Source of the DNA: Thermoplasmata archaeon | GTDB taxonomy: Archaea > Thermoplasmatota > Thermoplasmata > Thermoplasmatales > Thermoplasmataceae | Assembly (NCBI GenBank): GCA_021810045.1 | Contig: JAJZJR010000008.1 | Span: 1-64,000, forward strand | DNA length: 64,000 nucleotides | Direction: 5' to 3' | Part shown: in pieces, positions 34,501 to 40,234 of the stretch | Layout: each line of letters begins with the position of its first letter | How positions within the stretch are numbered: position 1 is the first letter of the stretch | Program-made: the position numbers and the translations under genes | Notes under the pieces: generated by a model | Told to the model about the DNA's origin: nothing | Seen by the model: the letters and a program-made list of their open reading frames with translations, nothing else | Database searches by the model: none

Positions 34501-36360
34501 ATGACATTTCAAGGTTCTAAAAAATTCAATGATTTAGCCAGAAACGGTTACCTCAAAATTTCCAACCACGGCATGATAGTTAACAACAGAACAGCTGCTC
34601 TTGTTGGTCTTAACGGCACAATAGACTGGGCCTGTCTCCCGAATTTTAATTCCCCTCCTGTTTTCGACTCTATCCTTGACTCAGCTAAAGGAGGATATTT
34701 CTCGATCAGACCCAGGGATACTGATGGAGTTGAAGTGATACAGTACTACAAGGAGCTCACAAATGTGCTTATAACTGAGTTCATGCGTGACGGCAAAGTC
34801 TTCATGAGACTGACGGACTTCATCCCAATTTCTGATTTCCCCACTATAAGTTTTCCGGAGATACACAGGCTTGTGGAAACAAGATCCGATGAAGTCCCGG
34901 TTGAAGTGGCTTTCAAGGCTACCCTTAATTACGGAAAGAATCACATCGATCTGGAAACCAGGAAGAATGGTTTCATTTTCCAGTCACCGTCCACAAATGT
35001 TGGTATTGTAAGTGAGATACCGCTTAAGGCTGAGGATCATACAGTCACGGGAAGCATAACCCTTCCCAAGAGGTCGTCCAGATGGCTCGTTGCCCTTCAG
35101 GGTATATCGCATCTCGATGCCATAACGGACTACAAATCATATGAAAGACTGGAGGAAACTACTGAATACTGGCAGAAATGGAGCAATATAGGCACTTACA
35201 AGGGCATGTACAATAATGACGTGATTCGTTCTGCTCTCACCCTGAAAGGCCTTTTCTTCGAGCCAACAGGATTAATGGTTGCAGCACCAACTGCCGGGCT
35301 CCCTGAATGTATTGGCGGAGAAAGAAACTGGGATTACCGGTATACCTGGATTAGGGACACTGCCTATGTAATAGAAGCCCTTTCAATGATTGGTTACAAG
35401 AGAGAGGCAACGAAGTTCCTGTACGATATGATGGATATTATCCAGCGTGAGAAGACGATACGGACCATATATTCCATCAACCAGATGGATGATTTGGACG
35501 AGATAGAGCTGGATTATGACGGATACATGCAGTCTAAACCTGTGAGAATCGGCAATAAAGCCTCCACTCAACTCCAGGTGGATCAGTACGGCTCAATAGT
35601 CAATGCAATCCATGCTCTCAGTAATGCAGGAGGAATAATCAATTCATACCTGTGGAATTTTGTGGGCGAAACTCTTGACACACTTGGTGAACTCTGGAGA
35701 ATGCCCGATTCAAGCATATGGGAATTCAGGACGGAACCAAGGCATTACGTTTACTCCAAGATTGTTTCATGGTCAGCCTTCAACAACGCCATAGACCTTG
35801 GTAAGAAACAGGGATTCTCAGGACCATACAGGAAGTGGAAGTCCATTGCAGATTCAATTAAGGAAGATGTGATTAAAAACGGATACGATCCGGAACTCAA
35901 TTCCTTCGTCCAGTATTATGGCTCAAAGGAAACAGATGCTTCACTCCTCAGGATGCCATTAGTAAACTTCATCCCCGCGAATGACAGTAGATTCCTTGGC
36001 ACTCTGGAGAAAATCGACAAAGATCTGAGGGTCACGGATCACCTGCTCAAGAGGTACAGGGAGGACGATGGCCTGAAGGGGCGTGACAATGCTTTCCTGT
36101 TGCTCTCATTCTGGTATGTGGAGGTTCTCATACACCTTAACAGGCTGGACGAGGCGAGAGACATCTTCGACTCACTTATGGACAGGGCAAACCACCTTGG
36201 CCTCCTTGCGGAGGAGATTGATTTTGATACCGGTGAGCAGCTTGGGAACTTCCCGCAGGCAATAACGCACCTTGGGGTAATCAGGGCCGCTGTCCTTCTC
36301 AACATGGAATTCAAGAACACCCATAGATCCAACCCAAGAAGGTCTGCCGGTAAGCACTAA
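34501..36360 (+). CDS. GH15 glycoside hydrolase (glucoamylase or trehalase)
   Basis: The 619-aa protein has the GH15 layout: an N-terminal beta-sandwich (1-240, GMIVNNRTAALVGLNGTIDWACLPNFNSPPVFDSIL) and a C-terminal (alpha/alpha)6 barrel with GGERNWDYRYTWIRDTAY (near 270-288) around the general acid, and LAEEIDFDTGEQLGNFPQAITHLG, where the catalytic base is expected. Archaeal members include glucoamylases and the Thermoplasma trehalases. No signal peptide is visible, so it acts inside the cell, fitting trehalose or glycogen use. TTTTAATAAG (34464-34473) about 30 nt ahead supports a leaderless start. Confidence 0.9.
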   Translation: MTFQGSKKFNDLARNGYLKISNHGMIVNNRTAALVGLNGTIDWACLPNFNSPPVFDSILDSAKGGYFSIRPRDTDGVEVIQYYKELTNVLITEFMRDGKVFMRLTDFIPISDFPTISFPEIHRLVETRSDEVPVEVAFKATLNYGKNHIDLETRKNGFIFQSPSTNVGIVSEIPLKAEDHTVTGSITLPKRSSRWLVALQGISHLDAITDYKSYERLEETTEYWQKWSNIGTYKGMYNNDVIRSALTLKGLFFEPTGLMVAAPTAGLPECIGGERNWDYRYTWIRDTAYVIEALSMIGYKREATKFLYDMMDIIQREKTIRTIYSINQMDDLDEIELDYDGYMQSKPVRIGNKASTQLQVDQYGSIVNAIHALSNAGGIINSYLWNFVGETLDTLGELWRMPDSSIWEFRTEPRHYVYSKIVSWSAFNNAIDLGKKQGFSGPYRKWKSIADSIKEDVIKNGYDPELNSFVQYYGSKETDASLLRMPLVNFIPANDSRFLGTLEKIDKDLRVTDHLLKRYREDDGLKGRDNAFLLLSFWYVEVLIHLNRLDEARDIFDSLMDRANHLGLLAEEIDFDTGEQLGNFPQAITHLGVIRAAVLLNMEFKNTHRSNPRRSAGKH

Positions 36361-36444
36361 TCTTTCCATAACCAAAATTCTCATTTTCTCATTTGTCAGG
36401 CTAGCAGGTGTCCTTAATATCGGATTCACCAATGGAACAGCCCA

Positions 36445-36909
36445 ATGCATGGAACTCTCAGGATATTCAGAACATCAAAATTCAACTTGGAAGCCCTGGA
36501 AGAGTTCATAAGAATTTCACTTAGAAACCACGGGGAGGTTCATTTCCTGCTCACAGATGGAATAATGATCAATTTCAGGGAGGTCTTTCCTCCGGAAATC
36601 ATGCCCATGGTTATGGTTCAGAGGATACTCACATCATATCAGCTACAGAAAATTCTCATGGACTCCGACGATAATCCATACTACATTTCTGTTTCATCTG
36701 CTGTAATTGAAACCTGGCCTTCCTCAGTTATTGAAACCATATATGATATTATGAAGATTAAGACTCAGTACCGCGGTGCAATTGTCTTTCTGCACATTGT
36801 TGGCCAGAGAGGGGTTTTTGAGAAGTATCTTGGAAACAGGATACTTTCACGCAACAACGCTGCAGACAGGGGAGGTTTGTATTCATGGGAAGAACAGTTC
36901 CAACAGTAA
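36445..36909 (+). CDS. Small RecA-fold-like protein without Walker A, first gene of the PolB2 operon
   Basis: A 154-aa protein with no recognised name. The strand-helix order (VHFLLTDGIMINFREVF; MVMVQRILTSYQLQKIL; NPYYISVSSAVIETWPSSVI; GAIVFLHIVGQRGVF) recalls the middle of RecA/RadA-type proteins from Walker B onward, with the phosphate-binding loop missing. That comparison is by pattern and is tentative. CTTAATAT at 36413 about 28 nt before the ATG suggests a leaderless operon start. It overlaps the next gene by 25 nt. Position ahead of a PolB2 gene suggests a role in polymerase recruitment or regulation. Confidence 0.65.
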   Translation: MHGTLRIFRTSKFNLEALEEFIRISLRNHGEVHFLLTDGIMINFREVFPPEIMPMVMVQRILTSYQLQKILMDSDDNPYYISVSSAVIETWPSSVIETIYDIMKIKTQYRGAIVFLHIVGQRGVFEKYLGNRILSRNNAADRGGLYSWEEQFQQ

Positions 36910-37130
36910 GGCAGAGCATGGACGCCCTCACGGCAAAGCTCCGGCAGATGTCGCAGATCATGAACTCAGGAGACGCAGAACTTCTGAACTCCATACTCGT
37001 AAAGGGCAGGAGACATGCACATGAAGTATCGTTCTCGGACATGGATGTAAGTTACGGTTTCCTCATATCCATCATTATAGAGCTCGAAAGGGAAATCCGG
37101 GAACTCAAGGCAGGGAAACCAGATGAATGA
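36885..37130 (+). CDS. Small helical protein, second gene of the PolB2 operon
   Basis: An 81-aa, mostly helical protein (VRQSMDALTAKLRQMSQIMN, SYGFLISIIIELEREIRELKAGK) with a possible coiled-coil C-terminus. It overlaps the gene before by 25 nt and the polymerase gene after by 8 nt, so translation is coupled. It is not recognised. The tight packing suggests it forms a complex with the polymerase. Confidence 0.7.
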   Translation: MGRTVPTVRQSMDALTAKLRQMSQIMNSGDAELLNSILVKGRRHAHEVSFSDMDVSYGFLISIIIELEREIRELKAGKPDE

Positions 37131-39135
37131 TGTTATTGTAAACGCCACTGGAACTGATTCTATACGTCTTTGGTACCTAATGGACAACAGGTTATACTTC
37201 AGGAGATTCAGGAACCGTTCATGGATATTTGTATCCGGTACGCCATACGACATGGATTTTCTTTCACGACAGCTCGACGACTCCGGTCTTTACAGATACA
37301 GTGAAGTTACAAGAAACAATGTTTACGGTTCAGTAAATGGGTTGGAAATTCAGGTGAATCCATCCGGCATGAATGATCTGATCAGGGCAATTGAAAACAT
37401 AGGTCTTGGGAGGAAATACAGCATCTACAATGCTGACATAAATCCGGTTCTGAGGTTCATGTCAGAACGTAATCTCAGGTTTTTCCAGCTCTCATCACCG
37501 GAAGATCATGATCCATGGATTCCGCATGTGTATATAGGTGGAAAATCAAGATTGGGAACACCAGTAGAGGTAAGTATAGATGACAGGAAATATCATAATC
37601 TTAATACACAGTTCCTTGAAGATCTGTACGAGTCAATCAGGGAAAGTGTTATTGTTATATACAGCAACAGGGACAGGCTTTTTGAGAAACTCATAAGATT
37701 GCTGTCTTCCAATGGTTACAACATTGGGGCATCACGTGGAAAGACTGGCAGTACATACCAGTCATATGGCCAGGTGTATTACAGCAATCCAAGAATATGG
37801 CTTTCAAACAGGATTGCAATCGAGGCCGATTCATTCACCTACTCTGAAGCAGGGCTCCCTGGACTTATACAGATGTCAAGAATATCATCACTTCCCATGG
37901 TTACAGCCTCAACTGTAACAGCAGGAACAGCAGTGTCTTCCATGGAGGAATCCCATGCAATCCGGCATCAGGTCCTCATACCACTGTACAAGGATGATCA
38001 TGAACAGGCCAAGCCATCGGATATTCTCATGGAGACCGACAAGGGAGGAATGGTGCTCCAGCCTGATCCGGGCATCTATATGGATGTTTACGAGATAGAC
38101 TTTTCATCAATGTATCCAAGCATAATGGTGAACTACAACCTCTCACCGGAAACCATTGGTTCACAAGGTGATTTTCAGGTTCCCGGTCTTCCATACAGAA
38201 TCAATACAGAAAAACGCGGGTTTCTTTCAATGGCATTGGAAGAGCTTCTCAGGACAAGACTTTTCTACAAGTCAGTAAAGTCAAGGGACATTGTGTACGG
38301 GCAGAGAGATGCAGCCCTGAAATGGATGCTTCTCACTTCATTTGGATATACGGGATACAAGAATGCAAAATTTGGGAAGATCGAAGTTCATGAATCAATA
38401 ACTGCTCTTGGGAGATGGGCACTTTCAAGGGCTATATCCCTGTCCATAAAGCATGGGTTCGAGCCAATACATGGAATCGTGGACTCCCTTTGGATAAGGG
38501 GGAATGGAGATATCGAGGCACTTCTCAGGGATATAGAAAATGAAACGAAAATAGGCATTGTAATGGATGGCCATTACAGGTGGATTGCATTCATGCCTGC
38601 ACGTTCAGGTCTAGGCGCACTGAACAGGTATGTGGGACTCAGGGACGATGGCACATTCAAGGTTCGCGGCATAGAGGCAAGAAGATCAGATGTTCCGCAG
38701 ATATGCATCGATTTCCAGATGGATGCCTTGAACTTGATGAGGAACTGTACTACCAAAGAGGAAATATGGGAAAAGAGGGAGTTCATAAAGCAGCTTGAAA
38801 GGTCATATATCAAGGAATTGCCATTGAAACCAAGGGATAATTTCCGGTTAGGCATCCACATTACACGAAACATGGAGGAATACCGGGTTAACAATATACA
38901 GAAGAAACTTATGCAGGCATCGGAAAATATTGGCTATATGATCAATCCAGGTGATCGTGTGGGTGCAATAATCGTTAACAAAAACCAGGGAAAGATCGAT
39001 CTCGGTGACCAATACAGCGGTATTGATATCCAGTACTACAGAAGAATACTGGAACGTTCATTTGAGCCCATGGACTTCATAATATCTTCATGTTCCCAGG
39101 AAAGGAGGCAGATCACTCTTTCTAAATTCTTTTGA
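37123..39135 (+). CDS. Family B DNA polymerase, PolB2 type
   Basis: The 670-aa protein has motif A EIDFSSMYPSI (D326), motif B K400-WMLLTSFGYTGYKNAKFG and motif C HGIVDSLWI. Here the usual YGDTDS is altered but the second, metal-binding Asp is kept as D454. The N-terminal third, where the proofreading exonuclease normally lies, shows no recognisable Exo I-III acidic motifs and is short, as in PolB2 polymerases, which are thought to act in damage tolerance (Dpo2 of Sulfolobus is strongly damage-induced). Replicative PolB1/B3 enzymes are longer, near 770-900 aa. Retention of D326 and D454 leaves activity possible. It ends 14 nt inside the convergent Orc1/Cdc6 gene. Confidence 0.85.
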   Translation: MNDVIVNATGTDSIRLWYLMDNRLYFRRFRNRSWIFVSGTPYDMDFLSRQLDDSGLYRYSEVTRNNVYGSVNGLEIQVNPSGMNDLIRAIENIGLGRKYSIYNADINPVLRFMSERNLRFFQLSSPEDHDPWIPHVYIGGKSRLGTPVEVSIDDRKYHNLNTQFLEDLYESIRESVIVIYSNRDRLFEKLIRLLSSNGYNIGASRGKTGSTYQSYGQVYYSNPRIWLSNRIAIEADSFTYSEAGLPGLIQMSRISSLPMVTASTVTAGTAVSSMEESHAIRHQVLIPLYKDDHEQAKPSDILMETDKGGMVLQPDPGIYMDVYEIDFSSMYPSIMVNYNLSPETIGSQGDFQVPGLPYRINTEKRGFLSMALEELLRTRLFYKSVKSRDIVYGQRDAALKWMLLTSFGYTGYKNAKFGKIEVHESITALGRWALSRAISLSIKHGFEPIHGIVDSLWIRGNGDIEALLRDIENETKIGIVMDGHYRWIAFMPARSGLGALNRYVGLRDDGTFKVRGIEARRSDVPQICIDFQMDALNLMRNCTTKEEIWEKREFIKQLERSYIKELPLKPRDNFRLGIHITRNMEEYRVNNIQKKLMQASENIGYMINPGDRVGAIIVNKNQGKIDLGDQYSGIDIQYYRRILERSFEPMDFIISSCSQERRQITLSKFF

Positions 39136-40234
39136 ACATCTCCATGACTTTTTCCTCAAGTACACCAACAGGAACATCATTGATGCCTATCATTTTGGCA
39201 ACACCTTTCCTGTCGCCACGGCCAACAACCTTTCCTTCCACGATTCCAATGTTTTCCAGCCGCTTGATTATCCTGTAGACCATTGAGTCTGCACCTATAT
39301 CCAGGAAATACTGCTCGGAAACAACTCTTGACTCCCTTATTACGCATGCCATCTCAGTACTCGACTCATCCTTGAGACACCTGCATACGGCCAGGAGGAC
39401 ACCAAGTTCCTCAGGCTCAAGTTCACCAAGCTTGCTCTCAGTAACGTAAGGATTGATCATTGAACTGGCGGCCCTTATATCCTCACTCTCCAGCTTCTCC
39501 CCATCACGGTACTGGCATACATATGCAGATTTCTGAAGGAGTTCTATGGCAACCCTGGCACTCCCGAAGGGTTCAGCAACCTCACTTATATATTCCAGAG
39601 AAGATTCGTCGAAGGTTCCCTGTTCAAGTGCCATTCTTGCCCTCTCACTGAGGATCTCAAAAAGCTCGTCCTGTTTGTAACGGTTGAAAAGGATTGTCGA
39701 AAACACACCAAGAGATTTTTTGTCTCTTTCAGTCATGTAGATAGTGGGGTCCTCCATGGAAACAAGTATACATGAAATAGGGGCACCATAGACCTCATTT
39801 GCCCTGAGGAGGTTGTATAATCCGTCTTTGTCAAACTTGATGAGGTTAGTGGCTTCGTCAACTATGATTACGATATTCTTTCCTCGTTCCTCGCTAACCC
39901 TTTTCATGGACCTGAAAATCTCCGGAAATGACATGTTCTTGGTTCCGGTAACTCTGCCCATCTTGGACAGGGCATCAAGAACAAGTGCTCTCAGGCTGCT
40001 GAATGAAAGAGCATTCTGGTAAATCATGAAGAATCTCTTCTCTTCCCTGCTCAGATATCTCATGGTTGAGGTTTTGCCTGTACCAGAGTCGCCAAAGGCA
40101 AGAAGGTTGGAGGAAATACCTGCTTTGAGGGGTTCAAGCATTATTCTCCTAATGTTCTCTATCTGCTTCTCCCTGAACCTTAGTTTCTGCGGGACGTAAG
40201 AAAAATCAAGCGGATCCGGATTTTTAATGATCAA
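39122..40234 (-). CDS. Orc1/Cdc6-family AAA+ ATPase
   Basis: The 370-aa protein has Walker A GDSGTGKT (48-55), Walker B VIIVDEA (D126-E127), sensor motifs STILFNRY and PFGSARVAIELLQ, and a C-terminal winged helix (about 280-370). Family members bind origins and load MCM, or in Sulfolobus (Orc1-2) act as the DNA-damage transcription factor. The gap upstream (40235-40273) is only 39 bp, so there is no obvious origin beside it. Its convergent overlap with PolB2 suggests, but does not prove, a functional link. Confidence 0.9.
   Translation of the reverse strand: MIIKNPDPLDFSYVPQKLRFREKQIENIRRIMLEPLKAGISSNLLAFGDSGTGKTSTMRYLSREEKRFFMIYQNALSFSSLRALVLDALSKMGRVTGTKNMSFPEIFRSMKRVSEERGKNIVIIVDEATNLIKFDKDGLYNLLRANEVYGAPISCILVSMEDPTIYMTERDKKSLGVFSTILFNRYKQDELFEILSERARMALEQGTFDESSLEYISEVAEPFGSARVAIELLQKSAYVCQYRDGEKLESEDIRAASSMINPYVTESKLGELEPEELGVLLAVCRCLKDESSTEMACVIRESRVVSEQYFLDIGADSMVYRIIKRLENIGIVEGKVVGRGDRKGVAKMIGINDVPVGVLEEKVMEMFKRI

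Follow-up and report, generated by a model that had tools for sequence, protein, structure and literature searches.

The window analysed here, a stretch of 64,000 nucleotides from a Thermoplasmata archaeon, carries on its plus strand three open reading frames of 154 aa (36445-36909), 81 aa (36885-37130) and 670 aa (37123-39135). The first and second overlap by 25 nt and the second and third by 8 nt, exactly as the earlier note on this DNA had read them. The three genes are an iRadA-PPB2-PolB2 operon, which has been published as a PolB2 mutasome operon (PMC4104785, PMC11791011). In the first detailed analysis, Makarova et al. (2014, PMC4104785) placed PolB2 together with arCOG07300 and inactivated RadA proteins in predicted operons, with an arORC2 gene close by in many euryarchaea. 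The names iRadA and PPB2 were given by Timinskas et al. (2025, PMC11791011), where a PolB2:iRadA:PPB2(3) mutasome was modelled. Since the system was already published, its published features served as membership tests. The earlier note had described a mutasome-like organisation and proposed a new archaeal counterpart of the bacterial ImuA-ImuB-DnaE2 cassettes. The organisation was borne out; the new counterpart was not, as the operon was published in 2014 and modelled in 2025. It is a further member of the PolB2 mutasome family, and the novelty of the system itself is not supported. Upstream of the operon (34501-36360) lies a gene for an unrelated protein of ~620 aa, which by eye is like a glucoamylase-type glycoside hydrolase.

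The gene neighbourhood was surveyed at 79 PolB2 loci, which overlap with the genome set used below for the co-absence of PolB2 and Orc1/Cdc6. PPB2 was found directly upstream of PolB2 in all loci that hold upstream DNA, three of the 79 starting at the polymerase. The iRadA position was recognised by its profile in the near families, and in most of the distant ones it was occupied by Rad51-like or similarly placed open reading frames. The order iRadA-PPB2-PolB2 was kept in the relatives with upstream DNA, as the earlier note had expected of PolB2 homologues elsewhere. A chance layout could be excluded, because relatives have conserved each of the three genes. At one locus (L075:2818-3474), a single open frame matches both the iRadA and PPB2 profiles and represents an iRadA-PPB2 fusion, a kind that has already been reported.

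The first gene (36445..36909, + strand) encodes iRadA, a RadA/Rad51 core of 154 aa that has neither the N-terminal domain nor the ATPase motifs. The P-loop is absent in all 27 aligned orthologues, and the invariant residues in this set include D38-G39-I40, R60, Q66 and W91. The 154-aa protein, used as a single sequence or turned into a profile, found no informative match in Pfam, NCBIfam or PDB sequences, and a direct profile-profile comparison (hhalign) of this lineage's iRadA alone with RadA was not significant. An AlphaFold2 model built on the alignment of 27 orthologues (pLDDT 82.5, pTM 0.80) consists of alternating strands and helices. When this model was compared with the PDB using Foldseek, phage UvsX, mycobacterial RecA, XRCC2 and RAD51 were matched (probability 1.00, E-values of 2e-4 to 1e-3, TM ~0.5-0.6). 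KaiC and thymidine kinase were also among the matches, the RecA-like fold being common to other families. For distant positional orthologues from genomes of the Methanomassiliicoccales type, Pfam Rad51 scored above its cut-off (3.5e-6 and 1e-5). The near and distant iRadA profiles matched each other with an E-value of 2.9e-6 (hhalign probability 88%) and the distant set matched RadA with 3.6e-4 (37%), both E-values being those for a single comparison. The same bridge can be followed by eye from (I/V)QRILTxYQLxxIL in near iRadA, through VARAFTAYQL in distant iRadA, to VARAYNSHHQ in RadA. Taken together, the model and the Rad51-matching orthologues support a RecA-like fold for the 154-aa protein, a point on which the earlier note had made its proposal depend, and its description of a truncated RecA/RadA core without a P-loop holds. 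The kinship to RadA rests on the fold and the intermediates, because the direct comparison with RadA is not significant. Compared with the published mutasome, iRadA is very short here (154 aa, without a P-loop) and resembles the arCOG07763 class of 2014, inactivated RadA proteins that have decayed to the point where it takes a sensitive method such as HHpred to reveal their kinship to RadA (PMC4104785).

The second gene (36885..37130, + strand) encodes PPB2, an arCOG07300-type PolB2 partner of 81 aa with the N-terminus MGRTVPTVR. The protein had no match in Pfam, and the PPB2 profile gave only chance coiled-coil matches against PDB sequences. It is the position next to polB2 and the N-terminus that identify it: M1, G2 and R3 are invariant in 29 orthologues, R9 is conserved in at least 90% of them, and MGRT together with R3 and R9 is the published signature of the PPB2 arm (PMC11791011). 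The small helical protein of the earlier note thus carries the PPB2 signature.

The third gene (37123..39135, + strand) encodes the PolB2 catalytic subunit of 670 aa. It matches the NCBIfam equivalog for type B DNA polymerases (NF004416) above the cut-off, with an E-value of 3.9e-174; its AlphaFold2 model (pLDDT 87.5) matches archaeal PolB structures in Foldseek with an E-value of 2.8e-31. Comparison with the genome's own PolB3 showed that the exonuclease site has been lost: ExoI (DIE in PolB3) lies in a deleted stretch, and the YxxxD of ExoIII is absent. The metal-binding Asp residues D326 (motif A) and D454 (motif C) are both invariant in 17 PolB2 sequences. Motif C reads I452-V453-D454 (38476..38484, + strand), so that xxD replaces DxD (DTD in the genome's own PolB3); V453, D454 and S455 are invariant and I452 is conserved in at least 90% of the 17 sequences. 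A dead exonuclease with the motif A Asp and the second motif C Asp kept is what characterises the PolB2 group, and the earlier note had likewise read a polymerase without visible proofreading motifs whose altered motif C keeps its Asp. The conserved D(K/R) motif is found as D306-K307 (38038..38043, + strand), with D306, G308 and G309 invariant in the same 17 sequences; in PolB2, this motif is said to contact the PPB2 arm (PMC11791011).

At the C-terminus of PolB2 lies a PCNA-interacting (PIP) box, QITLSKFF (39109..39132, + strand), which fits the canonical QxxLxxFF. The strict PIP pattern was found in 24 of 80 PolB2 C-termini, where shuffled sequences gave an expectation of 2.3. No PIP box was found in the iRadA of this lineage, and in other orders some iRadA proteins carry a QTTLEEF-like box at their end. 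Such a distribution fits the published "shuttling" clamp motif, which is located on PolB2 or on iRadA but rarely on both (PMC11791011).

Convergent to polB2 and overlapping it by 14 nt is a gene for an Orc1/Cdc6 paralogue (39122..40234, - strand), which was identified by its Pfam matches (Cdc6_lid, 4.7e-17; Cdc6_C, 1.2e-7) and is a candidate regulator of the operon. The convergent arrangement is present in 49 of 49 loci of the window's family, the window counted, and is not present in the 14 loci of a sister family. An ortholog-grade copy of this gene is absent from all four PolB2-less genomes of the window's family; three of the four are incomplete, and missing contigs could therefore explain part of this absence. 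This gene had escaped the earlier note, as had the PCNA box of PolB2 and a conserved promoter box that is common to radA and other genes.

The locus thus has in common with the published PolB2 mutasome (PMC11791011, PMC4104785) the three families and their order, the MGRT arm, D(K/R), the xxD motif C, a clamp box on either PolB2 or iRadA but not on both, and the Orc1/Cdc6 neighbour. It differs in that the clamp box sits on PolB2, and in that the promoter box and the genes that share it are absent from the literature consulted. What the present analysis established is the identity of the genes, the RecA-like fold of iRadA, the state of the motifs, the kept gene order, the PIP enrichment and the lack of a detectable Y-family polymerase in this genome. 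On this basis, there is high confidence that the product of the operon is an error-prone polymerase complex for translesion synthesis, the PolB2 mutasome, whose activity, stoichiometry and role in damage tolerance would be those described by work on S. islandicus and by the published models. PolB2 would be the catalytic subunit and, lacking proofreading, would extend primers with distorted ends beyond lesions. iRadA, a RadA core without P-loop and N-terminal domain, would dock on PolB2 via a loop that resembles the RadA oligomerisation loop and lies just before D(K/R). One arm (MGRT...) of a PPB2 trimer would be inserted between PolB2, iRadA and DNA. For its attachment to PCNA, the complex would in this lineage rely on the C-terminal QITLSKFF of PolB2.

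Other readings of the operon were considered. PolB2 has previously been regarded as a catalytically dead structural protein (PMC4104785), which might regulate replication together with the neighbouring Orc1/Cdc6; the loss of the first Asp of motif C and the adjoining Orc gene both fit such a role. However, D326 and the second metal ligand, D454, are invariant, and the S. islandicus enzyme, which carries the identical IID change, retains activity and is required for mutagenesis induced by damage, according to the summary in PMC11791011 (see also PMC7390963 and PMC8764526). An inactive PolB2 is therefore very improbable and was ruled out on the kept metal ligands and the active homologue. Even less probable is a genuine analogue of ImuA-ImuB-DnaE2, its RecA-like protein being homologous to ImuA and acting without direct contact with the polymerase. 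The three-gene layout, the RecA-like partner and an error-prone polymerase are indeed alike. However, the bacterial cassette has a C-family polymerase and a Y-family-like ImuB, and no homology of these to PPB2 or PolB2 has been shown. At the present locus, neither DnaE2 nor ImuB was found: the polymerase belongs to the B family, and the middle protein has no Pfam match; small and helical, it bears the MGRT arm and the PPB2 signature, unlike the Y-family ImuB. As the 154-aa protein bridges to Rad51/RadA, the ImuA reading was rejected; the partner is an inactivated RadA rather than an equivalent of ImuA, and the parallel drawn in the literature is E. coli Pol V (UmuD'2C-RecA). Pol V also combines a polymerase with a RecA-family partner and a small subunit with an inserted arm, but its polymerase is of the Y family, its RecA is active, and its small subunit is unrelated.

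Another close likeness to the PolB2 mutasome of the window is Dpo2 of Saccharolobus/Sulfolobus islandicus, a PolB2 whose motif C is of the xxD type, whose exonuclease is dead and whose operon is damage-induced. The present enzyme differs in its euryarchaeal (Thermoplasmata) host and in having no detectable Y-family polymerase alongside. No match to PF00817 (Y-family polymerases) was found in the window's genome, which is 99.9% complete, and matches above the cut-off were found in only four of the 61 genomes searched. Since no Y-family match was found, PolB2 may be the principal or even the sole translesion polymerase in this lineage. What the lineage adds to the published family is a minimal iRadA and a PolB2-borne PCNA box, in most well-assembled genomes without a detectable Y-family polymerase. 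One genome without PolB2 (G023) has a Y-family polymerase (PF00817).

While the operon itself confirms a published family, the added value lies in the conserved promoter box and the small, testable set of genes behind it. The box is the tandem 15-nt element CTCATTTTCTCATTT (36380..36394, + strand), which ends 50 nt before the iRadA start and is invariant before the operon in an upstream alignment of six congeneric genomes. It is followed by a putative TATA-like box CTTAATAT (36413..36420, + strand), ~28 nt before the iRadA ATG, of which the TTAATAT core is invariant in the same alignment. In other box-bearing promoters, the TATA-like box is at the same distance, ~20 nt after the box. The transcripts from these promoters, including that of the iRadA operon, are probably leaderless, because the start codon comes ~27 nt after the TATA-like box. 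Genomes were searched for the pattern with the reversed pattern as a control. The exact 15-mer occurs five times in the window's genome and 38 times in 37 genomes, and with the required spacing to an ATG it was matched in 24 of 61 genomes; the reversed pattern gave 0 in both cases. Some of the matches outside the genus are not at recognisable genes. Tandem TCATTT precedes iRadA at many loci of the window's family, including those of Ferroplasma and Acidiplasma; several genera have a single unit or none, and in a sister family TCATTT repeats precede the PolB2 operon with a different spacing. Across the order, related TCATTT repeats are found before many further PolB2 operons. The exact box was looked for in the Orc1/Cdc6 promoter, and none was seen. 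The open-licence literature yielded no description of an element of this kind from Thermoplasmatales; within that literature, as far as could be checked, the box and its small gene set are undescribed.

In the window's genome, the other exact copies of CTCATTTTCTCATTT are at C40:72498, C43:65277, C50:12884 and C51:66576. Four orthologous families, some of which are missing in incomplete genomes, have their start codons 46-50 nt after the end of the box in the six congeners: the mutasome operon, a ~60-aa protein with the C-terminus KSWF or KTWF, a 55-aa AbrB/MazE-like protein and a ~61-aa protein without a known family. The AbrB/MazE-like protein (55-57 aa; PF04014, 9.4e-6) is preceded by the box at L135, L177, L168, L188, L179, L180 and L217, the last of which belongs to another genus. 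In four of the six congeners, the box is also found ~300 nt before radA, where it is unchanged in a leader that otherwise diverges. The genes behind the box are likely to have a shared regulator, with the PolB2 operon among the co-regulated set, and the set, which includes radA, suggests a small DNA-repair gene network or regulon.

DNA damage is the hypothesised inducing signal, because the cargo consists of the mutasome and radA and because the PolB2 operons of Sulfolobales are induced by DNA damage (PMC11791011). The convergent Orc1/Cdc6 is a candidate regulator because of its position and because Orc1-2 of Sulfolobus binds the damage response element ANTTTC, which lies at -44 to -39 from the transcription start site (PMC5817253, PMC9738581). 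The two elements are alike in being non-palindromic, T-rich and upstream of TATA, with an Orc1/Cdc6 paralogue implicated. ATTTTC occurs within the box, roughly 55-62 nt upstream of the start codon, the tandem 15-mer as a whole lying at ~51-65 nt; if the transcripts are leaderless, this is >10 nt farther upstream than the Sulfolobus element. It is tentatively proposed, with somewhat less than even confidence, that CTCATTTTCTCATTT marks an SOS-like damage regulon in Thermoplasmatales, which would be controlled by the convergent Orc1/Cdc6 paralogue and would correspond, in euryarchaea, to the Orc1-2 damage response of Sulfolobus. The putative members, under the same joint reserve, are the PolB2 mutasome, radA, the AbrB/MazE-like protein and two other small proteins.

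The box could instead be a general promoter element or the remnant of a mobile element and not a regulon operator, and the repeated flanks of TnpB-type insertion sequences do contain the box with one base changed (CTCATTTACTCATTT, or G at the middle position). This explanation is unlikely, given that each congeneric genome has just ~3-5 exact copies with none in the reversed control, that the five exact sites have flanks unlike one another, that the spacing of 46-50 nt is kept at four orthologous gene families, and that radA has kept the box in a diverged leader. The middle-base variants (CTCATTTACTCATTT or G; L139, L141, L142, L143 and L146, position 1501 in each) were set apart because they are located in near-identical repeated flanks of insertion sequences, some of them before a TnpB-type transposase gene. 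An insertion sequence may have taken over the promoter box, or the likeness may be a coincidence.

An Orc/Cdc6-driven damage programme has so far been characterised, in the literature consulted, in Sulfolobales. If the box is a damage operator, it would offer a test of such a coordinated response in euryarchaea, and three uncharacterised small proteins would become candidate repair factors. One box-preceded family of ~60-67 aa (L134, L190, L191, L171, L186 and L170) has the C-terminus KSWF, KTWF or RTWF, which is possibly a degenerate clamp-binding end.
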